This document shows positions 2,972 to 18,381 of a stretch of DNA of 64,000 nt, piece after piece. The notes beneath the pieces are model-generated. The model ran no database searches, was not told the DNA's origin, and saw nothing but the letters and a program-made list of their open reading frames with translations. The position numbers were made by a program, and so were the translations under genes. Numbering within the stretch: position 1 is the stretch's first letter; each line of letters begins with the position of its first letter. The stretch is from contig NZ_OEQB01000002.1 of NCBI RefSeq assembly GCF_900240295.1, forward strand, positions 186,001 through 250,000. Direction: 5' to 3'. The stretch comes from Megasphaera vaginalis (ex Bordigoni et al. 2020). Its GTDB lineage: Bacteria; Bacillota; Negativicutes; Veillonellales; Megasphaeraceae.

Positions 2972-3913
2972 ATGAAACACGTTGAGGAAATGAAAGGATT
3001 GCATGGCATTGGCCGTGATCATACGTTTACCATCCATGATGAAACCGGTACGGCGAAAATGCGATATTACGCTGTTCATCCCGGTATTTCTTTAATGTAT
3101 GCCGACGTGCACATGCCGGGTTTTTCGTGTGAAGGAAGGCCGATGGCAGATGTGTTCGCTATTAACCACTGTGAAGAAGGTCGGATCGAATGCAGCTTTC
3201 ATAACGGCGAATATCTGTACATGGGGCCGGGAGATATGTCTTTCGGCTGGCGGCGGAGAACGGCTTATTGCCATGAAGCCTTTTTTCCCGCTGCCCACTA
3301 TCATGGAGTATCGTTGTTGGTCTCCGTTTCGCAGGCGCAGCCTGTTTTGGATTCCCGCCTCGGCGAGGATTCGATTGATTTGCGCCTCTTTTGCTCCCGC
3401 TTTTGCGAGGAAGGGGCGGAATTTTCATTGATCATGCAGGAAAATGATGAAATTAAGCACCTTTTCTATGAATTGTATCATGTGCCGGAACGGATCAAGG
3501 CGCAGTATTATCGTTTAAAAGTATTTGAAATTTTGCTGTTTCTCAGCATTATTGATGAGCTTTCTGTAAAAAGAAATCCCGTATTTCCGAAGCAGCAGGT
3601 CGATATCGTGAAAGCCATTCAGCAGGAAATCACGCAGCATATGGCGCGGCATTTTACGGTAGAGCAACTGGCCAGAAAATATGGAATCGCCCCGTCGACA
3701 CTGAAAAAATGCTTTAAAGGCGTTTACGGATGTACGATTCCGCAATATATCAAGGAATACCGCATCGGCCAGGCGAAGAAGCAATTGATCCACACGCAAA
3801 ACAGCATTTTGGAAATTGCCAATAAGGTAGGCTACGAAAATGGCAGCAAATTTGCCGTTGCCTTCCAAAAAATAACGGGACGTCTGCCGGGAGAATTCAG
3901 ACGAAATTATTAA
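2972..3913 (+). CDS. AraC-family transcriptional regulator (PchR-like)
   Basis: 313 residues. The C-terminal 100 residues carry the paired helix-turn-helix of the AraC/XylS family: ARKYGIAPSTLKKCFKGVYG is the first recognition region, and the second ends in the family signature around VGYENGSKFAVAFQKITG. The N-terminal 200 residues would be the effector-sensing part. Iron and heme receptors are often controlled by AraC regulators of this type (PchR, AlcR), which sense the imported ligand and activate receptor genes. The gene lies directly upstream of two receptor genes. Three promoters in this locus carry the same direct repeat, which makes those boxes its likely targets. It follows the PNPOx gene by 21 bases with the RBS AAAGGGGGAG and ends in a strong terminator. 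Confidence 0.9.
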   Translation: MKHVEEMKGLHGIGRDHTFTIHDETGTAKMRYYAVHPGISLMYADVHMPGFSCEGRPMADVFAINHCEEGRIECSFHNGEYLYMGPGDMSFGWRRRTAYCHEAFFPAAHYHGVSLLVSVSQAQPVLDSRLGEDSIDLRLFCSRFCEEGAEFSLIMQENDEIKHLFYELYHVPERIKAQYYRLKVFEILLFLSIIDELSVKRNPVFPKQQVDIVKAIQQEITQHMARHFTVEQLARKYGIAPSTLKKCFKGVYGCTIPQYIKEYRIGQAKKQLIHTQNSILEIANKVGYENGSKFAVAFQKITGRLPGEFRRNY

Positions 3914-3948
3914 AAAAAGTCCTTCTCATCTTGAGAAGGACTTTTTTT
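3912..3948 (+). terminator. Rho-independent terminator after the araC-type gene
   Basis: A perfect 17-base-pair hairpin with a 3-base loop (arms 3912-3928 and 3932-3948) begins with an A-run and ends in seven Ts. It separates the AraC gene from the receptor 1 promoter and could work in both directions. Confidence 0.93.
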
Positions 3949-3960
3949 AATAATTTCGAT

Positions 3961-4021
3961 GTCCAAACGGAGCTTTTTTGAACTGAATGGAGTAGAAGGA
4001 AGCAGAACTATTTGATATAGT
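3961..4021 (+). promoter_or_regulatory. Conserved direct-repeat activator box and -10 of receptor gene 1
   Basis: The box reads CGGAGC, T-run, GAACTGAATGGAGT. Two GGAG half-sites lie about 20 bases apart in direct orientation (the second GGAG at 3989-3992). A -10 hexamer TATAGT lies at 4016-4021, exactly 27 bases after the second half-site. The same arrangement recurs at 9204 and 14248. Tandem direct repeats two helical turns apart, the nearer one overlapping the -35 position, are typical of AraC/XylS activators. Confidence 0.75.
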
Positions 4022-4024
4022 ACG

Positions 4025-4040
4025 GATAGTGAGAATCAAT
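4025..4040 (+). promoter_or_regulatory. Candidate Fur box upstream of receptor gene 1
   Basis: GATAGTGAGAATCAAT differs at three of 16 positions from the corresponding part of the Fur consensus (GATAATGATAATCATT). It lies just downstream of the proposed -10, where a repressor would block initiation. Iron repression would agree with the role of the locus. Match judged by eye only. Confidence 0.5.
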
Positions 4041-4130
4041 CTAAAGTATAGAAGCGACAGTTGAAGATCTCGGCTGTATTGCTGTAAGTACGACTGTACA
4101 AAAATGCTGGAACTGAGAAAGGATGAAGTT

Positions 4131-4790
4131 ATGAACGGGAAAACTGGTGAAAAGTCATTGCGGCAGGTGCTGCTGACAGCTGCCGTTGCAGCCTGGCTGG
4201 CGGTACCGGTCTATGCCGCCGATGTAACGACGCGAGATATACAGGTACAGGCCAACGCGGCGCAGGAAGCGGCGAAATGGGAATCACAACAGGTATCGGT
4301 GATTACGCACGAAGATATTGAGAAGAAACAGGCCAAATCCGTAGAGGATATCATTTTCGGTGAAACGGGAGTATCGCGCACTGTTGATGCCATGGGGCGA
4401 GTCGGGGTGTCAATCCGCGGCGCTGAACCGCGGCATACGTTGATCCTCGTTGACGGGCAGCCGGTTATGGGCGACTTGGCAAAATATTCGGGTGCTGCCG
4501 ATGAAGTCATGCGCCTCGGTACGGAAAATGTCGACCACATTGAGATCATTCAAGGGGCGGCCAGCGCAAAGTACGGATCTGACGCCATTGGCGGTGTAGT
4601 GAACATTGTGACGAAAAAGGCACGCGATACGGCGGGATTTCAAGTTAATGCCGAAGGATTGCGGCGTGCCGGCGATGGTGACATCACGCCGTTTCAAAAT
4701 ATTTTCTTACGGGCAGATACAGGGAAGATCGGTAATGTGCGCTTAGGTATTTTCGGAAATAAGCGGGCTATTGCCTGTTCTTGCCAGTAA
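4131..4790 (+). CDS. TonB-dependent receptor 1, N-terminal part (signal peptide and plug), ends at a frameshift
   Basis: 219 residues encoding the start of a receptor whose remainder continues in another frame from about 4771. A signal peptide (LLTAAVAAWLAVPVYA, cut before ADVTT) is followed by the plug domain, with IRGAEPRHTLILVDGQPVMG and IEIIQGAASAKYGSDAIGG as the classic plug motifs. The frame also runs back to 4104, but the ATG at 4131 has a GAAAGGATG ribosome site and starts the signal peptide. Compared with the intact paralogue at 9318, the reading frame is lost after ...FGNKR, near 4762-4771. Either the gene is broken in this strain or the sequence has an error. The downstream frame is still open for more than 1400 codons, so any lesion is recent. 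Confidence 0.85.
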   Translation: MNGKTGEKSLRQVLLTAAVAAWLAVPVYAADVTTRDIQVQANAAQEAAKWESQQVSVITHEDIEKKQAKSVEDIIFGETGVSRTVDAMGRVGVSIRGAEPRHTLILVDGQPVMGDLAKYSGAADEVMRLGTENVDHIEIIQGAASAKYGSDAIGGVVNIVTKKARDTAGFQVNAEGLRRAGDGDITPFQNIFLRADTGKIGNVRLGIFGNKRAIACSCQ

Positions 4791-7700
4791 CGGCCGCCGT
4801 AAATCCGGGCTGAGTTTTGACTACAAGGAGCGTAGTTTTGATCCGAATGTGTTGCGGTATTATGGGAATGCGTCCGATGTCGGGTTGACCGGCTCTTACG
4901 ATATTAATAAAAATAATTCTCTCGATTTTAAATTTGACAGATATACGGAAGATTTGGTTCGCGATGTCAAGCATTCCGATTCCGATTTGGAACCGCAGCA
5001 GCATTTTAAGAGAAATGCCGACAGAAATACGTTTAATTTGGCGTGGAAAGGCCGCCGCGGCAATACGGATTGGACCGTAGAAGGAAATTATACGCGAATG
5101 AAAGAAGACGATGTTGCCTTGATCAACTATTTTGGGCGGTCTGCGTATGAAGGGAAAAACGAACTTCGTTATGTCGATGACGTTGATCACCGGCAATATA
5201 ATTTACAGACGTCGTTCAATACGCAGATCAATGACAGGCATATGCTCAATTACGGCATCGGCTATTCTCATGAAGAAGGCGAAGGCAGCCGCCTGAAAAG
5301 CTCACCTCACACACGGACAAAGTACATCGATGCCTGGGACTATGATAAAAATCTGCTCGTCGATAAACTAGACCGTCTGGTTCGCAAAAAAGGCGATACG
5401 AGTACGCGGATTTATTCGCACATCCATGATTACAAATTTGACGGCAACGATGCATCGGGCATGCCGCAATGGGATATCAACTATGAATATTACGGCGAAG
5501 AAAAGGGAAATGCCAAAACGATTGCGCCGATTAAGTACGAAGACTATGAGAACTATAAATTAGGCGATAAAGGAATGAGGGAGGAGAAAACCGATTGGAG
5601 TACGGGCAAAACGAGCTGGGTAATAAAAACAGAATATGACGGTACCGTTCACATGCCGAACGGCGCTGTCGTAGCGGCTGATTCGGATATTGCCAAGCGA
5701 TATGAGGCGATGTACCATAAGTTGACGAAAGAGAACCCCGGTTATAAAGGAGGGAATATTGTCGGCGCGTATTTTGAATATGGCGAATCGTCAGATGCAA
5801 AAAAACGCGCCGAAGCACCGACATTAAACGGCAAAAAATTCCTTGAAGAATTTCGTAACCGTAATCAGCGGATTACGGTTGGCAGCGGCAAAATTACTAA
5901 GCATAACGTCTTCCTTTCCGATATGTGGCAAGTTAATCCGGATACGATCATCGTGCCGACACTTCGCTACGATCACAGCAATCTTTTCGGCAGCAATCTT
6001 TCCGGCAATTTGGGCTTGACCTATACTGTTGCCGGCAATGCACATCGACGGTTTAAAGCCAATATCGGAACTGGCTATACGGAACCGGGAATGGGCGAGC
6101 TTTGGTATAATTGGGAAATGTACGCCAGCAATCCCGTCGGAGTCGGTTATGCAAAATTAGGTTGGTATTGGGCCGGTAATCCGAACTTGAAGCCGGAAAA
6201 ATCACTGAATTTCGATATGAGTGTGGAAGGAGAAAATAAAAACACCTACGCTCGCCTAGGAATTTTCCATAACCGAATTAAAAACTATATGTCGGTGTAC
6301 TACACGGGAGCCTTGATGGACTTTGCACCGTATTTGCATGGTGATCGGAAGTATCAGCGCGCTCCCGACATGATTTACAGTTTTAAAAATATCGGCAGAG
6401 CCGAAATTACGGGGCTGGAAGCGGAAGTGCGGCAGAAATTGGGAAACCATTGGAGCGCAAAGCTCGGGTATACGTATCTGCACGCTATCAATAAGAGTGA
6501 TCCTCAAATGCCGCATCGCTTGCTGGATAAACCGATGCATAAAGTGGACATTGGCCTGACCTTTGACGATCCCGTCAGCGGCTGGGGAGCTTCAATATGG
6601 GGCGATTACTATATTCGGATGCTCGACAGCAATACGTTGGCGGACAGTGCGAATTATTGGCCCGATATTTTAGATGGTGAAGGCGCCGTCTACAATAAAC
6701 GCGTTTACCAGGAAAAGACTTTTGGGATTTGGAATCTCCTGTTCCAAAAGAAGTTTGATGAAGATTCCATCGCTTATTTCGGTGTCAATAATGTCTTCAA
6801 CCATCGCGACGACGATCGGGCGACCCAAGAACGAGTATATCGCTTCGGCGTTAACCTTAAATTGGGGTTCAGCCGGAAAGCAAAAGAAAGGGTCTTTGTA
6901 CCGAAAGATAAGGCCGGCAAGGCTAACGTGGCGCCGGTCTTGCTGCAAGGGTTCTTGGATCGTCCCTTTGATACGGAAAAAGAGCGCGGCGCGGAACTAA
7001 TGGGAGAGTATCGTGCCCGTTGGAAGGTTCATGACGGTACGAACCGGCCTCAATCGAGATACCGTGCCGATACCTACGTCGGTACGGCAGCGGCAAATAT
7101 GAAGGATCAAGGCGAACACGGTTTTGAACAGCGGGTTCGCCTTGGCGTTGACGCTCGTCTCAGTGAAAATACGAACCTTACCGTCGTCGGCAGTGCTTCC
7201 GGAGAAAGCGGTGTCGATACGTCTTACGAAACGGAAAGCGCTAAAGGCATTAAGCATCGCCGTCTCGATCGTGTTGATCTTACGCAGCGGGCGCATAAAT
7301 GGGACTTTTCCATAGGTCGCCTGACGGAACCGATGGGGGTAACGGGATATTGGTTCGGCAAGGAATTTGACGGTGCTCGGGCTGTCTGGACAGGCAAAGA
7401 GACACAGATCCGCCTTGGTTACGGTACGTTTACCCACAGTACCGGCATTCCTGATTCGGCGTATACGCACGCTGTCCATGCGACCTTCTTCCGACCTCCT
7501 ACTATTATGGAATTAGTTGGTATTGATAAAGATGAAATGCCATATGCCGTGCAAAAAGGTACGACGCTGGATAAAACCTATGAGACGGCATATAAGGGGA
7601 AAACGGATTCCCTGTTCTTCCTCCAGCAATTGCGGGATGTTTGCGAAGATCCCAAGGCTACGGAAGCGGATAAGTTGGCCGTACTTCAACGGATGCAACG

Positions 7701-9093
7701 TATTGTTAAACAAGCATATGGAGAAGACCTTTCTCAACAAAGCTTTGCGTTGCGGACTCCTGCATCTGGGTACGTGTTATATAAAATCAGAAATAAAAAG
7801 ACGCATGAAGAAAAGCTGCAAAAAGTAGACTTGTATTACAGCAATAGAATTGATGCTTGGGACAGTGATGAAATAAAGGCCTTGAAAAAAGAAGTCAACA
7901 AAGATGTCTCCATTACTTTAAGCAATGAAAATGCACTGCGCGGACGGAATTATATCGAGGCCAATAAAGATACGTTATTAGCGGCCTATTCAAAAATCGC
8001 AAAGGTTTATGCGACGTCCAATTGGAACGGTAAGACTGATGACGAGTTAGGTTCCTCGTACACGTATGTGAAATATAACGGTAGAGACAAGGCCGGTGTT
8101 TTATATCAAAGTGATGCAAGCAAACGTGAAGATTACGAGTTTGCCGGGGTAGATGCTATTGTCACCATTGACAGTTATCATTCCGTACCGGGATATGATT
8201 CCAGCAATGTCATTACGCCGATTGATCTTTTAGATGGGTTATATAAGGCCAATTACGTTGATACGAACAGCGATCCGCAATACGGTTGGGCAATGCCGCA
8301 CCTTATGTTCGAATTTTTCAATCGGATGGAAACGGTATTGGAAGCCACTGAAAGCGGAAATCGCTTACCCCGTGAATCCATTGGCAAGATTGTCGGCAAT
8401 CTGATTAAAACGGAAGGGACAATGCTGGAACGGGATCGGATTCCGGAGCTGGATAAGGCGATATTTGTACAGGCCAAGCATGAAATTACACCGCGGCTTG
8501 GCGTACAGGCCTGGTACTTGCGCTCAATAGGCGATGATATCCATACGTTCCTCAACGCGAACGGTAAAAATAATGAACGTCATCGTTTCGACTCGTTGGC
8601 AAATGTCATCGGTATCGGTGCAAAATACCAAATTGGTGCCAATACTTCGATTTCCTTTGACTATGGACAGAATAGAACTGATTTTGGCCGGTATATGAAT
8701 GGCCGGAGTATGTACAGGCATGAACGCGGCACGGCAGACTTTGATCTGTGCGGCCATGAAAATGGCGGTATTCCGCATTTTTGGACGGCGCGCCTCGACA
8801 TCGGCCAAACCGATACGAATGTCGCCGGCAGCTGGAATGCCTTCGTCGACTACAAGTACTTCCAACACGGCTCCTTCTTCGGAGGCAACGGAACCGAAGC
8901 CTTACCGGATCGGTACCTGGACGGCATCAGCAGCTTTACCTTCGGCGGTGGTTATGTTCCGGCAAAGAATTTCCTGCTGGAAGCGTTCTATACCTTTGAC
9001 GCTAAAGGCATTAACCGTCGTGACACGCTTTACGGTCCGGAAAATTTCCGACTCGGAAACTATACGCGGCTGCAAATGACTTATAAATTTTAA
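4771..9093 (+). CDS. TonB-dependent receptor 1, remainder: receptor barrel fused to a second porin-like barrel
   Basis: 1440 residues continuing receptor 1 after the frameshift; the TTG at 4771 is probably not a real start. Residues 1-700 match the 22-strand barrel of a TonB-dependent receptor, with the NPNLKPEKS motif and a final strand ending in ERVYRFGVNLKLGF, the usual C-terminal signature of such barrels. The protein does not stop there. After a short linker, about 720 more residues form what looks like another outer-membrane barrel: alternating-hydrophobic strands, GFEQRVRLGVDARL, GRLTEPMGVTGYWFG, and a terminal strand TRLQMTYKF ending in Phe. About 317 residues (908-1225) interrupt this second barrel. 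The paralogue at 9318 has the same plan. Total length about 1,660 residues against about 700 for an ordinary receptor. Confidence 0.85.
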   Translation: MPVLASNGRRKSGLSFDYKERSFDPNVLRYYGNASDVGLTGSYDINKNNSLDFKFDRYTEDLVRDVKHSDSDLEPQQHFKRNADRNTFNLAWKGRRGNTDWTVEGNYTRMKEDDVALINYFGRSAYEGKNELRYVDDVDHRQYNLQTSFNTQINDRHMLNYGIGYSHEEGEGSRLKSSPHTRTKYIDAWDYDKNLLVDKLDRLVRKKGDTSTRIYSHIHDYKFDGNDASGMPQWDINYEYYGEEKGNAKTIAPIKYEDYENYKLGDKGMREEKTDWSTGKTSWVIKTEYDGTVHMPNGAVVAADSDIAKRYEAMYHKLTKENPGYKGGNIVGAYFEYGESSDAKKRAEAPTLNGKKFLEEFRNRNQRITVGSGKITKHNVFLSDMWQVNPDTIIVPTLRYDHSNLFGSNLSGNLGLTYTVAGNAHRRFKANIGTGYTEPGMGELWYNWEMYASNPVGVGYAKLGWYWAGNPNLKPEKSLNFDMSVEGENKNTYARLGIFHNRIKNYMSVYYTGALMDFAPYLHGDRKYQRAPDMIYSFKNIGRAEITGLEAEVRQKLGNHWSAKLGYTYLHAINKSDPQMPHRLLDKPMHKVDIGLTFDDPVSGWGASIWGDYYIRMLDSNTLADSANYWPDILDGEGAVYNKRVYQEKTFGIWNLLFQKKFDEDSIAYFGVNNVFNHRDDDRATQERVYRFGVNLKLGFSRKAKERVFVPKDKAGKANVAPVLLQGFLDRPFDTEKERGAELMGEYRARWKVHDGTNRPQSRYRADTYVGTAAANMKDQGEHGFEQRVRLGVDARLSENTNLTVVGSASGESGVDTSYETESAKGIKHRRLDRVDLTQRAHKWDFSIGRLTEPMGVTGYWFGKEFDGARAVWTGKETQIRLGYGTFTHSTGIPDSAYTHAVHATFFRPPTIMELVGIDKDEMPYAVQKGTTLDKTYETAYKGKTDSLFFLQQLRDVCEDPKATEADKLAVLQRMQRIVKQAYGEDLSQQSFALRTPASGYVLYKIRNKKTHEEKLQKVDLYYSNRIDAWDSDEIKALKKEVNKDVSITLSNENALRGRNYIEANKDTLLAAYSKIAKVYATSNWNGKTDDELGSSYTYVKYNGRDKAGVLYQSDASKREDYEFAGVDAIVTIDSYHSVPGYDSSNVITPIDLLDGLYKANYVDTNSDPQYGWAMPHLMFEFFNRMETVLEATESGNRLPRESIGKIVGNLIKTEGTMLERDRIPELDKAIFVQAKHEITPRLGVQAWYLRSIGDDIHTFLNANGKNNERHRFDSLANVIGIGAKYQIGANTSISFDYGQNRTDFGRYMNGRSMYRHERGTADFDLCGHENGGIPHFWTARLDIGQTDTNVAGSWNAFVDYKYFQHGSFFGGNGTEALPDRYLDGISSFTFGGGYVPAKNFLLEAFYTFDAKGINRRDTLYGPENFRLGNYTRLQMTYKF

Positions 9094-9098
9094 TAATA

Positions 9099-9172
9099 AG
9101 TAGTTTCGTACAGGGGAAACTACTTGCTTACACTCCTTTGCTGCAAGGGTTTTGTTGCGGCAAAGGAGTGTT
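9099..9172 (+). terminator. Two hairpins after receptor gene 1, the second a terminator
   Basis: A 9-base-pair perfect hairpin (9099-9107 with 9116-9124) is followed by a longer one (about 9130-9146 with 9156-9172, ACACTCCTTTGC pairing with GCAAAGGAGTGT). A T-rich tract follows. Transcription of receptor 1 probably ends here, so receptor 2 relies on its own promoter. Confidence 0.75.
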
Positions 9173-9203
9173 TCTGTTTTTTTAGTAAAAAAGGCAAGTC
9201 GGT

Positions 9204-9264
9204 GTTCGAATGGAGCTTTTTAGAACTAAATGGAGTAGAAAAATAATTAGGAAAAATTTATAAT
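9204..9264 (+). promoter_or_regulatory. Conserved direct-repeat activator box and -10 of receptor gene 2
   Basis: Same box as at 3961: ATGGAGC, T-rich spacer, AGAACTAAATGGAGT, with the second GGAG at 9232-9235. A perfect -10 TATAAT lies at 9259-9264, again 27 bases after that half-site. No good -35 hexamer is present, as expected if an activator substitutes for it. Confidence 0.8.
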
Positions 9265-9275
9265 ACAATTATATT

Positions 9276-9295
9276 GATAAATGATAATAAAAATC
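9276..9295 (+). promoter_or_regulatory. Candidate Fur box upstream of receptor gene 2
   Basis: GATAAATGATAATAAAAATC resembles the Fur consensus with one extra base, in a very AT-rich stretch just after the -10. The composition makes chance matches easier, so this is weaker than the candidate at 4025. Confidence 0.4.
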
Positions 9296-9317
9296 AAAAG
9301 AATGAAAGGAGCAACAA

Positions 9318-12300
9318 ATGAGGAACCGATACGGCATAGCCCGGAAACAAACGGCGCTTTTCTGTGCCGTCTTACTGTGGATGTCGCTGCCTGTCTACGG
9401 GGCAGATGGGCCGACGGAGAGTGCCGGCGTTACGACGCGCGATATCCAGGTGCGGGCGGACGCGGCGAAGGAAGCGGCCAAGTACGAGTCGCAGAGCACG
9501 ACGATCATCACGAAGGAAGATATAGCAAAGAAGCAGGCGAAATCGGTAGAAGACATCATCTTCAATGAAACCGGAATGAATCGCGCTGTGGATGCCATGG
9601 GGCGCGTTACTGTTTCGATCCGCGGCGCCGAACCGCGGCACACGCTCATTCTCGTTGACGGGCAGCCCGTCATGGGCGACTTTGCCAAATACAGCGGCCA
9701 AGGCGATGAGCTGCAACGGCTGGGAACGGAAAATGTGGAACGCATCGAAATCATCCGCGGCGCCGCCTCGGCCAAGTACGGCGCCGACGCTATCGGCGGC
9801 GTCGTCAACGTTATTACGCGCAAACCGGCAAAATCGGCGGGAATGCAGGTCAATGTCGAAGGACGGCGTGTCCGCGGTGACGGCGATTTGTTGCCGTATC
9901 CGAGTTTTTTCCTTCGCGCCGATTCCGGCCAGATCGGTAAAATGCGTTTTACCGCTTATGGCGGCAAGCGAGACGTCATGCCTGTTTATAGTGCGGCTCT
10001 TTTTCACGGCGGCATGAATACAACAGAGCCGATTCGCAATTCGTTGCGATATTACGGCGCTATTAAAAATATCGGCGTACTGGCAACGTATGACATTGAT
10101 GCCAGAAACAAGATCGACGTCGGCATAGACCGGGCGAATGAAGAGATGGAACGATTTGTCAAGCATTCTGACGACAGCCCGGATCCCGTAGTCAACTATA
10201 GGCGAAAGGTAAACCGTAATACTTACCGTATCGGCTATGCAGGAAACGACGGCGGCAAGACGGATTGGCAGATCGATGCGGATTATGCCAAGATGAGAGA
10301 GCATGATATTACCTTGTCTTCCGTTGCGGCGTATTCCTCCTATGAAGGAAAGAATTCTTTGGAATATCTGGATAACATTATACATAAGCAATGGAATATA
10401 AAAGCAAGCGCAAATACGCAAATTAATGACGCGCATTTGCTGACCTATGGATTCGGGTACAGCAGGGAAAATGGCGAAGGCAGCCGATTGAAAAGTGCAA
10501 GGAATATCAAAACTCAACATATTGATCCTTGGGATTACGATAAAAATCTGCATAGTGATAAAGGTGTCGGCGCGCCGCAATCTCATGTTTACGATTATGC
10601 CATGTATCTGGATGAAAAAGGCATTCCCCAGTATGATCAAGCATATGAGTTGTATGGCTATAAAAATGAAGCCGGCAAGTCTGTGGTACCGGCCTATACT
10701 TATCAGGATTATGTCGATAATGTGGATGACGAAGAACGCATTGCCGCCTTTTCCCGTCAGCTGCGCGAAGAGAACCCGTCCTTGCAGGTGGAAGACGAAT
10801 GGGGAGAAATACCTGATGACGATATCGTCATGCGCAGGTATTATGATGCGAAAACGTTGAAGTGGCACGGCAAGACGTTTCAGGAAGAATCGGCCAATCG
10901 CTGTAACCGCCAAACGATTGGACAAGCGGAAATCAGCAAACAACATTTCTTCGTTCAAGATACGTGGCAAATCAATAAGGATACGTTGGTGACTCCTGTA
11001 TTACGATTGGATCACAGCAGTCTCTTCGGTTCGAATGTGAGTTTTAATGTGGGACTTACGCATGCTCTTGGCGGATCTTCCACACAACGGGTTAAGGCTA
11101 ATATCGGCACCGGGTATACGGAACCGGGAATGGGAGAATTATACTATAATTGGGAAATGTATGCCGGTATGCCTTATGACCTGGGAATAGGAAAGTTAGG
11201 ATATTACTGGTTTGGCAATCCGAACTTAAAACCGGAGAAGTCATTTAATTTCGACCTTGGCTTTGAAGCGGAAAAGGGTAAGACCGCAACGCGGGTAAAT
11301 GTGTTCCATAATCGTATTAAGGATTATATGACCACCTATTTTACAGGAAAACTTATGAATTTCTATCCCGATGCGGGTGTAAACACGTGGATCACACCGC
11401 CGGACATGATCTACAGCTTCAAAAATATAGGAAAAGCTGAAATTACGGGGCTGGAAGCGGAATTATCCCATCAATTCAATGATCATTGGTCCGGGAAATT
11501 GGGCTATACATATTTGCATGCCGTCAATAAAAGTGATCCGGATATGCCCGATCAATTGCTGAATAAACCGCAGCATAAGTTTGATATAGGTGTTACCTAT
11601 GATAATCGGAAAACCGGCTGGCGAGTTTCTTTGTGGGGTGATTATTACATTCATATGTTGGACAGCAACACGATTGCCAATAATGGGAATTATGTCCATA
11701 ATGACATCGGTGATGGGCAACCGGTGTATACATTTGCGGAAAAGGGGAAGCAAACCTACCAGAAAAAAACATTCGGCATATGGAATCTCCTGATTCAAAA
11801 GAGGTTTGATAAAGATGCGATTGCTTATGCGGGAATAGACAATCTCTTTAATCATCGTGATGATGATCAGGCAACGCAGGAACGGGTATATAAATTCGGT
11901 GTAAATATGAAATTCGGAGCTGCGGTGCAACCTGCCGAGAAAAAGGCTGCGGCCCCGAACGTTGCGAAGATATTCACACATAGCGAGCCGTGGTTTATTC
12001 ATGTGCCGTTTGACTTGCAGAAACCGAAAGGTGTCGCATTGATTGGTGACTATCGGTTGCGTTGGAATGCCTTTGGCGGTAAACAAAAGCCGGCAGACGC
12101 CCGGGTTACGGCTGTGTCCAGCGTCGGGTCGGCGTATAAGAATTATCTGGAAAAAGCTGGGCACGGCTTTGAACAGCGTTTTCGACTTGGGCTTGATGCC
12201 CGAATCGGCCGGTATACGAATATCACGCTGTTAGGCGGTGCTTCTGGCATAAGCGGCGTCGATACGGCGCAGGACATTGCCGGATCCAGAGGCTTGGGCC

Positions 12301-14066
12301 GGCAGCGCCTTGAAGCGGTTGACCTCATGCAACATGTGCGTAAATGGGATTTTTCTCTTGGCCGTTTAACGGAACCGATGGGTGTTACCGGCTATTGGTT
12401 CGGAAAGACATTTGACGGCGTCCGCGCTATATGGACGAGTGGAAAGAATCAGGTGCGTTTGGGCTATGGCGATTTTAGCGCTAGTACGGGGATCAACGAT
12501 TCGGCGTACACGCATGCTGTAACGAAGATTTTTATGCGTCCGCCGACTAAACATGAATGGTTGGGGCAGGACCAACCGGAAAATTATGCGCTTCACGGTG
12601 AATACAGCGACATGACGATACGGACACCGGGGTTTGAAAGCCTGTATCAGAAGTTGGTGAAAGCAGGCTCCTTGGAGGAAGAAAAGAAAATTATTGATAC
12701 CTACATGGCCGTTATCAAGAAAGATAAGCCCGGCTTGTATGAAAAACTGAGCAAGCGCAGCGGTCAGTATTATATGAATAGCTATATCTGGAGAAAGGTT
12801 ACGGTAAAAGACGCGGCCGGCAAGATTGTCAAAGAAGTTATTACTACGGATGTACCGGTCGTATATGTCAAAAATACAACTTTCGATAAAGCGAAGATTC
12901 AGCAAGACGGAGAAGAAACATGGCGGCGTCTGATGGCGATGACCGGTGAAAACGGAGAAGAGTGGGATGACTATATTCAAGATTCGTCTTTAGTACGCGA
13001 AGGCGCATATCATATAACTTCTGAATTTTACGGCTACGGCATATATACGGGCAAGGAAGTATTGGAAGACCTCGGTGCAGACCACAAAGGAAAACGATAC
13101 GCAGGGCTTCCTGTGAATAAGTTGAAAGCCGGAGATATTCAGCCGCTGACGCAGGCAGAAGCTAAAAACAGAGCGTCGTCTTCGTTGTGGAACAGAGATA
13201 CGGCGTGGATGACGGTGTATAAAAAATTGCCTAATGGTAATGGTATTCAAGGCTATAAGGCGGCTCCTATCTCCCCGATCGCTAAGCGCGTGCTTTTCTG
13301 GTTGGCAGGGGATATGTGGAAGCCGGAAGATGACAGTACGCTGCCGTTGCACTTATTAGAAAAAGAAGGGTATTTGATCGCGCAGATGGGAACCGTTCTG
13401 GTACAGGATCAGCTTCCGGCACTTGATCGGGCCTTCTTCGTCCAGGCCAAGCACGAAATTACGCCGAACTTCGGCGTAGCCGCCTGGTACCTGCGCTCCG
13501 TAGGGGACGATAAGCACACTTATGCGGCGGCTCACGGCGACGGCAACGACCTGGCATCTTTCGACACGTTGGCCAATGTCATCGGCATCGGCGCCAAGTA
13601 CCGCTTTGGGAAGCAGGCGTCCGTATCCTTCGATTACGGCCAGAACCGTACTGACTTCGGCCGGTACATGAACGGCCATACGGTGTACGTTCATCAGGCG
13701 GGAACGTCGGGCTTTACGATGGGCGGCAGAACGGGCGGCGGGACGCCGCACTTCTGGACGGTACGATTCGACATCGGCCGGGCCGACACGGACAAGCCGG
13801 GAAGCTGGAACGCCTTTGCCGACTACAAATACTTCCAGCACGGGTCTTTCTTCGGGGGGAACGGAACGGAAGGCGTACCGGACCGGTACCTGGACGGCAT
13901 GTGCAGTTTCACGCTCGGAGCGGGCTACGTACCGGCCAGGAATTTCCTGCTGGAAGCGTTTTATACCTTTGACGCCAAAGGCATCGGCAAGCGGGATACG
14001 CTCTACGGCAGTGAAAACTTCACGCTCGGCGATTACACGCGCATTCAGGCGACGTACAGATTCTGA
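9318..14066 (+). CDS. TonB-dependent receptor 2 fused to a second porin-like outer-membrane barrel
   Basis: 1582 residues, intact. Signal peptide (ALFCAVLLWMSLPVYGA), then the plug (about 60-190; IRGAEPRHTLILVDGQPVMG, IEIIRGAASAKYGADAIGG), then a receptor barrel ending near residue 866 with ERVYKFGVNMKFGA. From about 880 to 1582 there is a second domain with its own outer-membrane features: GFEQRFRLGLDARIG, FSLGRLTEPMGVTGYWFG, YGQNRTDFGRYMNG, FADYKYFQHGSFFGGNGTE, and a last strand TRIQATYRF ending in Phe. Residues 1072-1365 are an insert unlike the one in receptor 1. The receptor part should import a metal chelate or heme using TonB energy. The second barrel could be a porin or a docking and release partner (inference). 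The ATG has the RBS AAAGGAG. Its own activator box and -10 lie upstream. Confidence 0.9.
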   Translation: MRNRYGIARKQTALFCAVLLWMSLPVYGADGPTESAGVTTRDIQVRADAAKEAAKYESQSTTIITKEDIAKKQAKSVEDIIFNETGMNRAVDAMGRVTVSIRGAEPRHTLILVDGQPVMGDFAKYSGQGDELQRLGTENVERIEIIRGAASAKYGADAIGGVVNVITRKPAKSAGMQVNVEGRRVRGDGDLLPYPSFFLRADSGQIGKMRFTAYGGKRDVMPVYSAALFHGGMNTTEPIRNSLRYYGAIKNIGVLATYDIDARNKIDVGIDRANEEMERFVKHSDDSPDPVVNYRRKVNRNTYRIGYAGNDGGKTDWQIDADYAKMREHDITLSSVAAYSSYEGKNSLEYLDNIIHKQWNIKASANTQINDAHLLTYGFGYSRENGEGSRLKSARNIKTQHIDPWDYDKNLHSDKGVGAPQSHVYDYAMYLDEKGIPQYDQAYELYGYKNEAGKSVVPAYTYQDYVDNVDDEERIAAFSRQLREENPSLQVEDEWGEIPDDDIVMRRYYDAKTLKWHGKTFQEESANRCNRQTIGQAEISKQHFFVQDTWQINKDTLVTPVLRLDHSSLFGSNVSFNVGLTHALGGSSTQRVKANIGTGYTEPGMGELYYNWEMYAGMPYDLGIGKLGYYWFGNPNLKPEKSFNFDLGFEAEKGKTATRVNVFHNRIKDYMTTYFTGKLMNFYPDAGVNTWITPPDMIYSFKNIGKAEITGLEAELSHQFNDHWSGKLGYTYLHAVNKSDPDMPDQLLNKPQHKFDIGVTYDNRKTGWRVSLWGDYYIHMLDSNTIANNGNYVHNDIGDGQPVYTFAEKGKQTYQKKTFGIWNLLIQKRFDKDAIAYAGIDNLFNHRDDDQATQERVYKFGVNMKFGAAVQPAEKKAAAPNVAKIFTHSEPWFIHVPFDLQKPKGVALIGDYRLRWNAFGGKQKPADARVTAVSSVGSAYKNYLEKAGHGFEQRFRLGLDARIGRYTNITLLGGASGISGVDTAQDIAGSRGLGRQRLEAVDLMQHVRKWDFSLGRLTEPMGVTGYWFGKTFDGVRAIWTSGKNQVRLGYGDFSASTGINDSAYTHAVTKIFMRPPTKHEWLGQDQPENYALHGEYSDMTIRTPGFESLYQKLVKAGSLEEEKKIIDTYMAVIKKDKPGLYEKLSKRSGQYYMNSYIWRKVTVKDAAGKIVKEVITTDVPVVYVKNTTFDKAKIQQDGEETWRRLMAMTGENGEEWDDYIQDSSLVREGAYHITSEFYGYGIYTGKEVLEDLGADHKGKRYAGLPVNKLKAGDIQPLTQAEAKNRASSSLWNRDTAWMTVYKKLPNGNGIQGYKAAPISPIAKRVLFWLAGDMWKPEDDSTLPLHLLEKEGYLIAQMGTVLVQDQLPALDRAFFVQAKHEITPNFGVAAWYLRSVGDDKHTYAAAHGDGNDLASFDTLANVIGIGAKYRFGKQASVSFDYGQNRTDFGRYMNGHTVYVHQAGTSGFTMGGRTGGGTPHFWTVRFDIGRADTDKPGSWNAFADYKYFQHGSFFGGNGTEGVPDRYLDGMCSFTLGAGYVPARNFLLEAFYTFDAKGIGKRDTLYGSENFTLGDYTRIQATYRF

Positions 14067-14120
14067 CTGCAAGAATGCATTTTTATTCCGCTTTTGCAGT
14101 GCGCGGAATTTTTTCTGAAC

Positions 14121-14154
14121 GGCTCTGTTGCAAATTGCGGCAGAGCTGTTTTTC
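14121..14154 (+). terminator. Probable terminator after receptor gene 2
   Basis: A short hairpin (GGCTCTG at 14121-14127 with CAGAGCT at 14141-14147) is followed by GTTTTTC. It is weaker than other terminators here, with a brief T-run. Confidence 0.5.
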
Positions 14155-14247
14155 GTGTGGAATGGCTGCGTGGTATACTGTAAACGGAAGCGATTGAGAT
14201 AGCTTGCCGTATTTTGATCCTTTTATGGATATAATCATAAAGTCGGT

Positions 14248-14308
14248 GTCCAAATGGAGCTTTTTAGAACTGATTGGAGTAGACAGGATGGAAATACTTT
14301 GTTAATAT
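14248..14308 (+). promoter_or_regulatory. Conserved direct-repeat activator box and -10 of the exbB-exbD-tonB operon
   Basis: Third copy of the box: AATGGAGC, T-run, AGAACTGATTGGAGT, with the second GGAG at 14276-14279. The hexamer TAATAT at 14303-14308 lies at the same 27-base offset as in the two receptor promoters. A moderate Fur-like stretch (about 14316-14335) follows. The box links energy supply and receptors in one regulon. Confidence 0.75.
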
Positions 14309-14449
14309 TTGAATGTAATAATTACTCTCAATTAATGACTGAACAGAAGGAGGCGGGTTCGGCAAAATGTAACGGTACGCTGCAGGTGTGTGTCGTGTTT
14401 TATTGATGCGATCAGGTATATAGTTGAAGGATAATAGGAGAGTGTCGAC

Positions 14450-15079
14450 ATGGAAGGATTTTCGTATTGTATTCATTTGTTTCACAGCGGCGGTATCGTT
14501 ATGTATCCGCTCTTGCTCTTGTCCGTCATCACGGTGGCAATTGCAGTGGAACGGGGATTTTATTATCAGACGAACCGCAGCGGCTCGAAGAAGTTTTTTC
14601 ACGGCGTTTATCACGCTGCCAAAACCGATAATTGGTCGGCGGCGGAGCAGCTTTGCAAGGAGTTTCCGACGTCCATCAGCCGAATTATTGCGGCAGGTTT
14701 GGCAAATGATGCTTCGGAGATAGCGATGAAGGATGCGTTTGCCGAAACGATGGCGGCTGAAGCTGTCGGCTTCCGCCGTTATCTCGATTACCTCAGCGCT
14801 ATCGTTACCATTGCGCCGCTTCTGGGACTGCTCGGTACGGTAACAGGAATGATCAATACTTTCAGCGTGCTGGATAACGGCGCCGGCGCCATGGCCATGA
14901 CGGGCGGTGTCGGCGAAGCGCTGGTCGCTACGGCAACCGGGCTTTGTGTCGCGATCATCGCGTTTTGCGTGTATACCTATTTCAGTCATCAGCTGGACAC
15001 GATCATTAGCGATACGGAAAGTCTCTGCGTTTCCGTTTTGAACGGAAAAATGAAAAAGTGGGGGAAGGACAATGTTTAA
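14450..15079 (+). CDS. exbB: ExbB-type proton channel subunit of the TonB system
   Basis: 209 residues of the MotA/TolQ/ExbB family. A membrane helix near residues 15-35 is followed by a cytoplasmic stretch and then two more helices around AIVTIAPLLGLLGTVTGMI and ALVATATGLCVAIIAF, which hold the family's conserved channel motifs. With ExbD it forms the inner-membrane proton-driven motor that energises TonB. It is the first gene of an operon that overlaps exbD by 8 bases, has the RBS AGGAGAG, and is preceded by the same activator box as the receptor genes. Confidence 0.93.
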   Translation: MEGFSYCIHLFHSGGIVMYPLLLLSVITVAIAVERGFYYQTNRSGSKKFFHGVYHAAKTDNWSAAEQLCKEFPTSISRIIAAGLANDASEIAMKDAFAETMAAEAVGFRRYLDYLSAIVTIAPLLGLLGTVTGMINTFSVLDNGAGAMAMTGGVGEALVATATGLCVAIIAFCVYTYFSHQLDTIISDTESLCVSVLNGKMKKWGKDNV

Positions 15080-15476
15080 TCGCCATCGGATGAAGAGGAA
15101 GCCGCAATTTATGATCATTCCCATGATCGATATCATTTTCTTTCTTCTCGTCTTTTTTATGATGAACAGCTTGCAGACGGTGGCGCAGAAAGCCTTGTCC
15201 GTACAGCTGCCGCAGGCACAGAGCGCTTCGGCGCCGGCGCAGCTGCCGATTATTCTGACGTTGGATGCCGAAGGGCACATTACAGTTGATAATAAACCGG
15301 TCAGCTTGCATGAAGCGGATCAGATCATGAAGCAGCATATGTCGGAAAACAATCATGCTTCCGTTATTTTGCAGGCTGATAAGCGTACGGCGCACGGACA
15401 GGTCGTCGCCGTCATGGATATGTTGAAGGGAGCCGGGGTTAAGCGGCTGGCCATTGCTGCAGAGCAGAAAGGATAG
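15072..15476 (+). CDS. exbD: ExbD-type subunit of the TonB motor
   Basis: 134 residues. A short cytoplasmic start is followed by one membrane helix (MIPMIDIIFFLLVFFMM) containing the conserved aspartate in MIDIIFFLLVFF that carries protons in the ExbD/TolR family. A periplasmic domain follows, ending in QVVAVMDMLKGAGVKRLAIA. The start overlaps the end of exbB, which implies translational coupling. It ends 4 bases before tonB. Confidence 0.93.
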   Translation: MFNRHRMKRKPQFMIIPMIDIIFFLLVFFMMNSLQTVAQKALSVQLPQAQSASAPAQLPIILTLDAEGHITVDNKPVSLHEADQIMKQHMSENNHASVILQADKRTAHGQVVAVMDMLKGAGVKRLAIAAEQKG

Positions 15477-15480
15477 GAAT

Positions 15481-16242
15481 GTGAAGAATTTATCATGGAT
15501 GAAGGCCTATACTGCTTCCGTGATTCTTCATCTCCTGTTGATCGGCATCGGTGTTGTTGTTTTTTCCGGTACGGTGATGGAAAAGGAGCAGCTGTATGTC
15601 ATTGATTTGCAGACTGGCGAGGTAATCAGTCAGGGCAGCGGCCATGCCGGCGGCGGTGGCGGCAGCGCCGTCGATTTCCCGGAACCGCTGAAAGCGGAGG
15701 ATGTGGAAAAACGTTTGGCCGAAGTGGAAAAGACGCAGCCTGTTGCGCCGTCTCCGGCACCGCCGGCGGTGCCGGAGACGGCGACCGGTTCACAGCAAAC
15801 GCCGGCTGCCTCTGAAGCGCACGGAGAGGGTAGCGGCGCCGGCAGTGGAGAGGGCAGCGGCTTGGGTGCCGGTCAGGGCAACGGCAGTGGAGACGGCCAG
15901 GGGTACGGAGAAGGCAGCGGCAGCGGACAGGGGAGCGGTGACGGCAATGTTTCCGGAACCGGTACGCAACCTTTTGACGTGGAAGGATTCTGGGGCGCTG
16001 TTAACGGCAATAAGCAATATCCACCAATGGCTATCAAACGTCATTTGGAGGGAACCGTCATAATTATGACGACACTGGACGGCGGGGGGAACTGCCTCGG
16101 TGTTTCTGTCGCCGCGTCTTCGGGGCACGATATCCTCGATAATGCGGCTGTCAAGGCCGCATACGCGGCGTGCCCGTTTCCAAATGCGAGCGGCAGAACC
16201 GTTACAGTTCAGACGTCGGTTCATTTCGGACTTAATGAGTAA
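15481..16242 (+). CDS. tonB: TonB energy transducer with an unusual Gly/Ser-rich periplasmic linker
   Basis: 253 residues from a GTG at 15481 (RBS AAAGGATAGG). An N-terminal membrane anchor (VILHLLLIGIGVVVFSG) is followed by a short Pro-rich stretch (about 82-100) and then about 50 residues (112-162) almost wholly Gly, Ser and acidic/Gln, built from GSG[E/D/Q]G-like units. The C-terminal TonB domain follows, with YPPMAIKRHLEGTV as its signature and a final strand VQTSVHFGL. Classical TonB spans the periplasm with a rigid Pro-Lys/Glu linker, so a flexible Gly-rich one is notable. It should contact the two adjacent receptors. Confidence 0.9.
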   Translation: MKNLSWMKAYTASVILHLLLIGIGVVVFSGTVMEKEQLYVIDLQTGEVISQGSGHAGGGGGSAVDFPEPLKAEDVEKRLAEVEKTQPVAPSPAPPAVPETATGSQQTPAASEAHGEGSGAGSGEGSGLGAGQGNGSGDGQGYGEGSGSGQGSGDGNVSGTGTQPFDVEGFWGAVNGNKQYPPMAIKRHLEGTVIIMTTLDGGGNCLGVSVAASSGHDILDNAAVKAAYAACPFPNASGRTVTVQTSVHFGLNE

Positions 16243-16293
16243 GGTGTGAAATAAGGCAGTTATCATATTAACGGTATAAAGGAGAGGATATAT

Positions 16294-16815
16294 TTGAAAA
16301 CGGTTGTCTTGTACTCATCACGCACTGGGAATACGAAAAAGGTGGCTGAAGCGATCGCTTCCGTCTTGCCGGCGGGCACTCCCTGCTTGCCGGTCGGCGA
16401 AGCGCCGGCTGATCTGGAAGAATACGATTGCGTATTCCTCGGCTTCTGGGTAGATCGCGGTACTGTCAATGAGGAAGCGAAAAACGTTTTATCCGGGTTG
16501 CAGAATAAGCATGTTGCTGTTTTTGCGACACTCGGCGCACCGCCTGATTCGGTGCATGCCCTGACTGCATTGGACAATGCGGCGGCGTTGCTGCCGTCGG
16601 GAAAGGCGCCGGCCGGTCGGTTTATTTGCCAAGGAGCCGTTGATCCCAAGCTGATTGAAATGATGTATCAGAAGTTTCCTGCCGGTTCTCCCCATGGCAA
16701 GAGTCCCGAACGGGACGCCATGCATGCCGAGGCGGCAAAACATCCGAATGAAGAGGATTTTGCCAAGGCCAAAGCCTTTGCAGCAGAGGTGTTGAAAGGA
16801 GTGGCAGAGGCATAG
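16294..16815 (+). CDS. Flavodoxin-family protein, likely electron donor to the adjacent radical SAM enzyme
   Basis: 173 residues from a TTG at 16294 with a strong RBS (AAAGGAGAGG). It starts with the flavodoxin phosphate loop YSSRTGNTKKVAEAI and continues with the flavin-binding region around FLGFWVDRGTV and FATLGAPPDS. Flavodoxins supply the electron that ChuW/HutW-type radical SAM enzymes need. The stop codon is followed with no gap by the start of such an enzyme, which implies coupled translation. Use as its dedicated donor is inference from this arrangement. Confidence 0.85.
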   Translation: MKTVVLYSSRTGNTKKVAEAIASVLPAGTPCLPVGEAPADLEEYDCVFLGFWVDRGTVNEEAKNVLSGLQNKHVAVFATLGAPPDSVHALTALDNAAALLPSGKAPAGRFICQGAVDPKLIEMMYQKFPAGSPHGKSPERDAMHAEAAKHPNEEDFAKAKAFAAEVLKGVAEA

Positions 16816-18381
16816 ATGTTGTTACAGGAGTTATATGACAGGCAGTCGCCGGCAGAACGGGCGTTTCTGTTCGGCTGTGAAGGCGTTGATGCGTTGACGG
16901 CGGCCTTCCCGCACAAACGAGTCGTTCACGCCGGTTTGGAAGGAACTGTCGTGGCGCCTGCTGAGGCCCAGCAGATATGGAAAGGACTGTTGGCGCAGCC
17001 GCCGCAGTCGCAGCCTACGCAGTCCGCTTATATTCATATTCCTTTTTGCAAAACAAAGTGCCTGTATTGCGGTTTTTTTCAAAATGGCGAAAATCAGCAG
17101 GCTGAAAACCGATACATAGATTGCCTCTTGGAAGATATCAGAAGGGATGCGGCGCAACCCCGGTTGCGCGACAGTCTGATTCATTCCGTCTTTATCGGCG
17201 GCGGCACGCCGACGAGTTTATCCGTTCCTAACGTCAAACGTCTGCTGCAGGCAATTCGCGCGTATTTGCCGTTGGCTAATGATTATGAGCTGACCTTGGA
17301 GGGACGAATTCATGATCTGGTACCTGAAAAGATGGAAGTTTGGCTGGCAAACGGTGTAAACCGTATCTCTCTCGGCGTACAGTCTTTTCATACGGCAGTG
17401 CGTCGTAATGTCGGCCGTCTTGATGATACGGAAACGGTTTTGAAACGGCTGGCCGCCTTGAAAGCCTATAACCAATGCGTTGTCGTGATCGATCTGATCT
17501 ATGGGCTGCCGGGGCAGTCGATGGCGGTTTGGCAAGAGGATCTGCGCATTTTATCTGCCTATGATATTGACGGCGCCGATTTATATCAGCTCAATGTTTT
17601 TGAAGACAGCGATCTGCAAAGACGAATTGCCGACGGGACCTTGCCGCCGGCGGCGACGACGGCAGAGCAGGCCGAAATGTTTGCCTTTGCCAGGGATTAT
17701 TTGAAAAAACGCAATTACAGACGTGTCAATATTTGTCATTGGAGCAATACGAACCGCGAAAGAAGTCTCTATAACTCACTGACACGACAAGGCGTACCGA
17801 TGTTCCCGTTCGGCAGTGGCGCCGGCGGCAACCTTGACGGCTACAGTACGATGCTGCACCGGGCTTTGGAGCCGTACGAAATGGCGGTGGATCAGGGAGA
17901 AAAGCCGTTTATGGCGCTGCTGAAGCAATCGGCGCAACAGCCTTTGGTTAATGCGTTGCTGAAACAGTTGGAGCAGCGGTATATTGACCTCCGGCAGCTG
18001 GTTTCCTATCAGGAGCGGCTGAAGGAGTTGAAATGGCTCTTCGATTTGTGGCAGGAACGGGGCTTATTGCGCGATAACGGTGTTTGTTACGAACTGACCG
18101 AAGCCGGTGAATTCTGGCAGGTCAACATTGCCCAATCTACGTTAGAGTGTATGGAATATTTAGTAACGGGAAAGAAACAGCTCCAGATGCAAGGAGTGGC
18201 AGCGCAGGATACGGGAAAGCAAGGGCGTATTGACGCCAAGGCCGAGGCGATCGTAAAGGTCATGAAAGAAATGAAGGAAAATGGCGGCAGCCGTATGGCG
18301 GCTATGCAGGAGATGGCGGAAGCCATGCGGTCCATGACGGCAGAGGAAATGCAGGCTGTCATGAAGCGGATGCGGCCGTAA
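16816..18381 (+). CDS. ChuW/HutW-type radical SAM enzyme for anaerobic heme degradation
   Basis: 521 residues. The cluster motif is CKTKCLYC (Cys78, Cys82, Cys85), the CX3CX2C pattern of radical SAM enzymes, followed by FIGGGTPTSL and NRISLGVQSFHT as in the HemN-like group. The WLANGVNRISLGVQ and GRLDDTETVLKRL regions and the C-terminal layout match ChuW/HutW rather than HemN. Known ChuW opens the heme ring without oxygen, releasing iron and a methylated tetrapyrrole (anaerobilin). It is the last gene of the TonB/flavodoxin run and ends in a terminator. The last 60 residues form an extra Met- and charge-rich helical tail (AAMQEMAEAMRSMTAEEMQ) of unknown use. Confidence 0.87.
   Translation: MLLQELYDRQSPAERAFLFGCEGVDALTAAFPHKRVVHAGLEGTVVAPAEAQQIWKGLLAQPPQSQPTQSAYIHIPFCKTKCLYCGFFQNGENQQAENRYIDCLLEDIRRDAAQPRLRDSLIHSVFIGGGTPTSLSVPNVKRLLQAIRAYLPLANDYELTLEGRIHDLVPEKMEVWLANGVNRISLGVQSFHTAVRRNVGRLDDTETVLKRLAALKAYNQCVVVIDLIYGLPGQSMAVWQEDLRILSAYDIDGADLYQLNVFEDSDLQRRIADGTLPPAATTAEQAEMFAFARDYLKKRNYRRVNICHWSNTNRERSLYNSLTRQGVPMFPFGSGAGGNLDGYSTMLHRALEPYEMAVDQGEKPFMALLKQSAQQPLVNALLKQLEQRYIDLRQLVSYQERLKELKWLFDLWQERGLLRDNGVCYELTEAGEFWQVNIAQSTLECMEYLVTGKKQLQMQGVAAQDTGKQGRIDAKAEAIVKVMKEMKENGGSRMAAMQEMAEAMRSMTAEEMQAVMKRMRP

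Follow-up and report, generated by a model that had tools for sequence, protein, structure and literature searches.

Importers of the outer membrane may be assisted at the cell surface by a separate protein; HpuA and TbpB, for instance, are surface lipoproteins serving their receptors. To our knowledge, no natural protein has been described in which two complete outer-membrane barrels are joined in one chain, and a full-text search of the literature, partial in its coverage, recovered no two-barrel outer-membrane protein. In Veillonella parvula, OmpM1 is a proven diffusion porin, the 16-stranded barrels of which form trimers and have loops on the extracellular and turns on the periplasmic side (PMC10628300). 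The hmu/hut heme operons of Fusobacterium and Veillonella, which include an anaerobilin synthase, share with the locus described here HutW/HmuW, a flavodoxin, ExbB-ExbD-TonB and a TonB-dependent receptor; the accessible parts of that account give the receptor as an ordinary HmuR and mention no second barrel (PMC10404700), whereas the receptor encoded at this locus carries one.

The locus lies in the window, i.e. the whole stretch of 64,000 nucleotides of Megasphaera vaginalis DNA that we analysed, and codes, in order, for an AraC-family regulator, two fusion proteins, ExbB, ExbD, TonB, a BilS-like flavodoxin and HutW (Table 1). Veillonella, V. parvula SKV38 among them, has retained this order, with one or more fusion genes between AraC and ExbB-ExbD-TonB-BilS-HutW. 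Just upstream are genes for an ABC importer (periplasmic binding protein, FecCD permease and ATPase), an ordinary 728-residue TonB receptor and the ChaN heme-binding protein (L108, 7403-8314); ChaN and the adjoining ordinary receptor, which lie at the beginning of the window or shortly before it, suggest a wider heme island. Judging by its gene content, the region 2972-18381 is an apparent heme-uptake locus, and the substrate here, as far as the locus indicates, is probably heme or a hemoprotein. That the fusion is accompanied by a TonB motor and an enzyme that opens heme, as a preceding reading of the sequence alone had pointed out, is borne out by the ExbB-ExbD-TonB and HutW genes. A PNPOx-fold protein (2156-2950), which may be a HugZ/HutZ-like heme protein, adjoins the fusion genes and is also their neighbor at two other loci (L054 and L074). 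The fusions of Selenomonas and Centipeda occur in other settings, e.g. beside an ECF-transporter operon, and the family as a whole is thus not tied to heme.

Table 1. Coordinates, in the window, of the fusion genes, their domains and the neighboring genes and sites
Feature	Position	Strand	Basis or remark
AraC-family regulator	2972..3913	+	
44-bp operator-like element, copy 1, before the paralogue	3953..3996	+	
Paralogue fragment 1: signal, plug, barrel start	4104..4790	+	ORF list, Pfam
Paralogue fragment 2, other frame: rest of receptor barrel, linker, second barrel	4771..9093	+	Porin_5 28.1 bits, over cut-off
44-bp operator-like element, copy 2, before the double-barrel gene	9196..9239	+	
Fur-box-like site, 2 mismatches to TGATAATNATTATCA	9282..9296	+	
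Double-barrel outer-membrane protein, 1582 aa, single open frame	9318..14066	+	ORF list
TonB plug, residues 58-162	9489..9803	+	Pfam PF07715, 81.2 bits (cut-off 23.9)
Receptor barrel, approx. residues 172-866, final strand ..VYKFGVNMKF	9831..11915	+	PF00593, TIGR01786, CirA/FepA profile match
Linker, residues 867-890 (~24 residues)	11916..11987	+	length and sequence variable across the family
Second barrel, strands 1-7, residues 905-1052	12030..12473	+	AlphaFold2; hhalign to OmpM E 7.7e-15
Alpha/beta domain inserted in predicted extracellular loop 4, residues 1078-1352 (~275), hypervariable	12549..13373	+	AlphaFold2, alignment
Second barrel, strands 8-16, residues 1368-1582, C-terminal F	13419..14063	+	AlphaFold2; hhalign to OmpM E 2.1e-25
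44-bp operator-like element, copy 3, before exbB	14240..14283	+	
ExbB/TolQ-type motor protein	14450..15079	+	
ExbD/TolR-type motor protein	15072..15476	+	
TonB, C-terminal domain over cut-off	15454..16242	+	
BilS-like flavodoxin	16294..16815	+	
HutW/ChuW anaerobic heme-opening radical SAM methyltransferase	16816..18381	+	485.8 bits, cut-off 400

The product of the gene at 9318-14066 contains two complete outer-membrane domains, namely a TonB-dependent receptor and, after a linker, a second domain at approximately residues 891-1582. The sequence-only reading had proposed just this fusion of a receptor to a second porin-like barrel, and the Pfam and TIGR profiles, an AlphaFold2 model and a match to the OmpM profile all agree with it; as far as profiles and models can tell, there is strong support for a real, conserved double-barrel protein. 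In the receptor part, PF00593 scores over its cut-off (128.3 bits) with an alignment that runs to the end of the profile, and the alignment with TIGR01786 extends as far as the final column of that model (719/719), at residue 866. By these alignments the receptor is complete before the chain continues into the second domain, and the end of the receptor barrel had been correctly placed at about residue 866 beforehand. A profile built from 34 related receptor halves matched the PDB structures of CirA and FepA, and the strand number of barrel 1, going by its family, would be 22. A TTRDIQVRA-type motif near the N-terminus, seen by eye across the family, is a candidate TonB box. The plug, the barrel and an own TonB motor are common to the fusion and to CirA, FepA and the TIGR01786 hemoglobin/transferrin receptors, and so perhaps is a TonB box, whereas the chain of the fusion runs past the last receptor strand into a second barrel. 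The fusion further differs from the TIGR01786 family in scoring below the curated cut-offs of the heme-receptor subfamilies (121.9 versus 316.85 bits for TIGR01785; 148.5 versus 323.75 bits for TIGR01786). The family alignment of the receptor domain has no conserved histidine between the FRAP (YTEP here) and NPNL motifs, and M605, Y610 and M614 are invariant in the region where heme receptors have their conserved histidine.

Modeling of residues 879-1582 with AlphaFold2, using 57 aligned sequences, gave a mean pLDDT of 89.7 and a pTM of 0.79, and a Foldseek search of the PDB with this model recovered the V. parvula OmpM1 barrel entries as best matches (8byt: E 1.2e-13). The TM-score was 0.74 on the target and 0.34 on the query, an insert being part of the latter. 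Likewise, an hhalign comparison of the second-domain family with the OmpM family gave E 3.8e-30, and homology to OmpM was found separately on either side of the insert (E-values in Table 1). A PDB sequence search with the second domain returned only chance matches, so the homology rests on the structure and profile comparisons. Pfam Porin_5 (PF16930; cut-off 22) scores 14.1-21.2 bits with the 9318-14066 product, passes its cut-off with the paralogue and matches 54 of the 57 family members at E<=0.01. From the secondary structure, the TM-score and the alignment, barrel 2 is predicted to be a closed barrel of 16 strands. With V. parvula OmpM1 (PDB 8bym/8bys/8byt; PMC10628300) it would have in common this fold, along with a loop-3 motif, a C-terminal aromatic residue (F1582 here) and homology flanking the insert. 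It differs from OmpM in being devoid of the SLH domain and stalk, in being situated behind a TonB receptor and in having the added loop-4 insert; since profile searches found no SLH domain in the fusion, the second domain is a relative of the OmpM barrel and not an OmpM. Stand-alone relatives, among them an OmpM with an SLH domain, are encoded on contig C3 of the same genome.

The sequence-only reading had attributed barrel features and a terminal aromatic residue of its own to the second part, and the OmpM1-like model, together with the porin-profile match, fits this. A globular tail or extra strands of the first barrel, the two outcomes that would have spoken against that reading, were considered for the C-terminal part. 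We rejected the latter, for this part models alone as an independent OmpM-type barrel; a globular or surface tail was rejected on the same ground, although a globular domain is inserted within it.

Within the first seven strands of barrel 2 lies a conserved, OmpM-like loop-3 motif, GRLTEPMGVTGYWFGKxxDG. The strong conservation of this constriction motif in the fusions, and the homology to a proven diffusion porin (PMC10628300), would be expected if barrel 2 were a working diffusion pore for a small co-substrate or product, such that a single chain would couple passive to active transport. The motif likewise counts against a pure scaffold, given that its conservation could mean that the pore is used; yet it could equally be structural, and the part of the domain that varies and is exchanged the most, the surface insert, would be superfluous in a general pore. 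On balance we regard a working pore as unlikely. The trimeric state of the homologous OmpM1 barrels (PMC10628300) raises the further alternative that barrel 2 is an oligomerization module, which would trimerize in the manner of OmpM and thereby cluster three TonB receptors; this would leave the exchangeable insert unexplained and seems to us quite unlikely.

The insert itself, when modeled alone by AlphaFold2 (pLDDT 87.0, pTM 0.83), is predicted to fold on its own. A fold search of the PDB with this model gave nothing at E<=0.001, and searches of Pfam and PHROGs gave nothing convincing. In the model of the second domain, seven strands before the insert and nine after it match the OmpM strands in order; this position between barrel strands 7 and 8, combined with the topology of OmpM1, corresponds to extracellular loop 4, and the alignment thus points to a location on the cell surface. 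Following the OmpM topology, two short strands flanking the insert (187-196 and 476-485 in second-domain numbering) were counted as part of it. Across the family the mean pairwise identity is 0.215 in the insert, as against 0.52 and 0.60 in the flanking barrel parts, and near-identical barrels (88-97%) have inserts of 22-32% identity. For instance, a Centipeda and a Selenomonas protein (L046 and L071) are 88/94% identical in their barrel parts and 28% in the insert, and two copies from Megasphaera cerevisiae (L064 and L070) are 91/97% and 32% identical, respectively. The 9318-14066 product compares with an Anaeroglobus protein (L051) at 70/64% in the barrel parts and 29% in the insert, and with a Veillonella protein (L044) at 42/52% and 53%. 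The divergence of the insert has sharp edges in sliding-window identity, and pairwise alignments made separately, globally and with BLASTP, ruled out misalignment as the source of the low values. The pattern indicates module exchange or extreme local divergence, of which recombination is the simpler reading. Exchange of an outward-facing module is the pattern that a substrate-binding domain would show.

The same mosaic, being so sharp, along with the many broken copies of the gene in some genomes, could alternatively mark the insert as mainly a variable surface antigen or a face for evading phages or bacteriocins, with swaps driven by immune or phage pressure and not by the choice of substrate. 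This would explain neither the retention of an entire second barrel nor the tight linkage to a TonB system and a heme enzyme, and we consider it very unlikely.

We instead propose, as the best supported of these readings and with evenly balanced confidence, a two-barrel importer in which barrel 2 serves mainly to hold the variable surface domain next to the receptor as a co-receptor. Barrel 1 would import the substrate, powered by the adjoining ExbB-ExbD-TonB, and barrel 2, an OmpM-type barrel without the SLH anchor, would be joined to it by a periplasmic linker. The loop-4 domain, held by barrel 2 at the mouth of the receptor, would capture or strip the substrate (probably heme or a hemoprotein) and pass it to barrel 1; heme iron would then be freed inside the cell by HutW. 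The co-receptor role of barrel 2 and its insert is suggested by analogy: the proposed logic of an energized barrel plus a surface capture domain would be like that of HpuB-HpuA, TbpA-TbpB and SusC-SusD, but in place of the lipid by which lipoproteins of the HpuA/TbpB type are anchored, the capture domain would here be anchored by a second barrel of the same chain. Counted against the co-receptor reading are the missed heme-receptor cut-offs, the lack of a conserved histidine and the occurrence of the family beyond heme-related settings. Tentatively, and with somewhat less than even confidence, the fusions might represent a new class of importers, in which a former porin barrel anchors an exchangeable capture domain in lieu of a lipid-anchored co-receptor. 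The sequence-only reading had suggested coupled uptake and diffusion, hand-over of cargo or dimer-like pores as possible functions. The architecture also raises the questions of how BAM inserts two barrels from one chain, whether there is coupling between active and passive transport, and in what way the swapping of a module shapes the evolution of receptor specificity.

To determine how widespread the fusion is, we searched 380 Negativicutes genomes, of which 97 gave a match of any strength and 42 a strong one (E below 1e-40). The latter belong to seven genera of five families, and 39 of them contain an uninterrupted frame of 1500 aa or more, which rules out a chance read-through or an assembly fusion. 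A scan of named genomes, with two short peptide patterns as query, yielded 61 fusion loci, all from Negativicutes (Veillonella, Megasphaera, Anaeroglobus, Colibacter, Selenomonas, Centipeda, one Sporomusaceae genome and one further Negativicutes genome). Among 398 genomes drawn evenly from across the phylum, three matched strongly, again all Negativicutes, with no fusion outside this class in that sample. One of the strains that carry the fusion, V. parvula SKV38, is tractable. In their accessible parts, the papers on the outer membrane and heme operons of V. parvula treat the fusion genes as ordinary TonB receptors or leave them unmentioned. The fusion barrels appear to have been overlooked in the structural study of V. 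parvula OmpM, given that the accessible parts of it name the OmpM paralogues as the sole general porins and discuss only two other putative porins (PMC10628300).

The second fusion gene of the locus had been described beforehand as a paralogue of the same plan at 4131-9093. The plan holds, whereas a single frame does not: in this assembly the gene is frameshifted into two ORFs (Table 1), which overlap at 4771-4790, after the plug. A programmed frameshift was considered and rejected, as there is no homopolymer at this junction, and the frame change could be either true decay or an error of sequencing or assembly. The view that the plan is no accident of one gene is upheld by dozens of intact fusions in other genomes. 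Broken copies, arising through frame changes and in-frame stops, are common in some relatives, and possibly constitute a silent pool for the exchange of inserts. Single in-frame stops interrupt the copies at L042, L048, L052 and L069, with four TAG and two TAA among the six stops examined, and M. cerevisiae has many copies, most of them broken or at contig ends.

Finally, the intergenic regions of the locus contain three copies of a 44-bp element made up of two GGAG half-sites 20 bp apart, which are the only ones found in the whole 2.2-Mb genome in a search at three mismatches. Half-sites with this spacing are of the kind bound by AraC-type regulators, and the element is likely to be the operator of the adjacent AraC regulator. 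A relaxed version of the pattern also matches inside a gene at L081, probably by chance, and occurs upstream of fusion genes at eight other loci (L054, L079, L083, L090-L093 and L098), which belong to other Megasphaera-group and Veillonella genomes.
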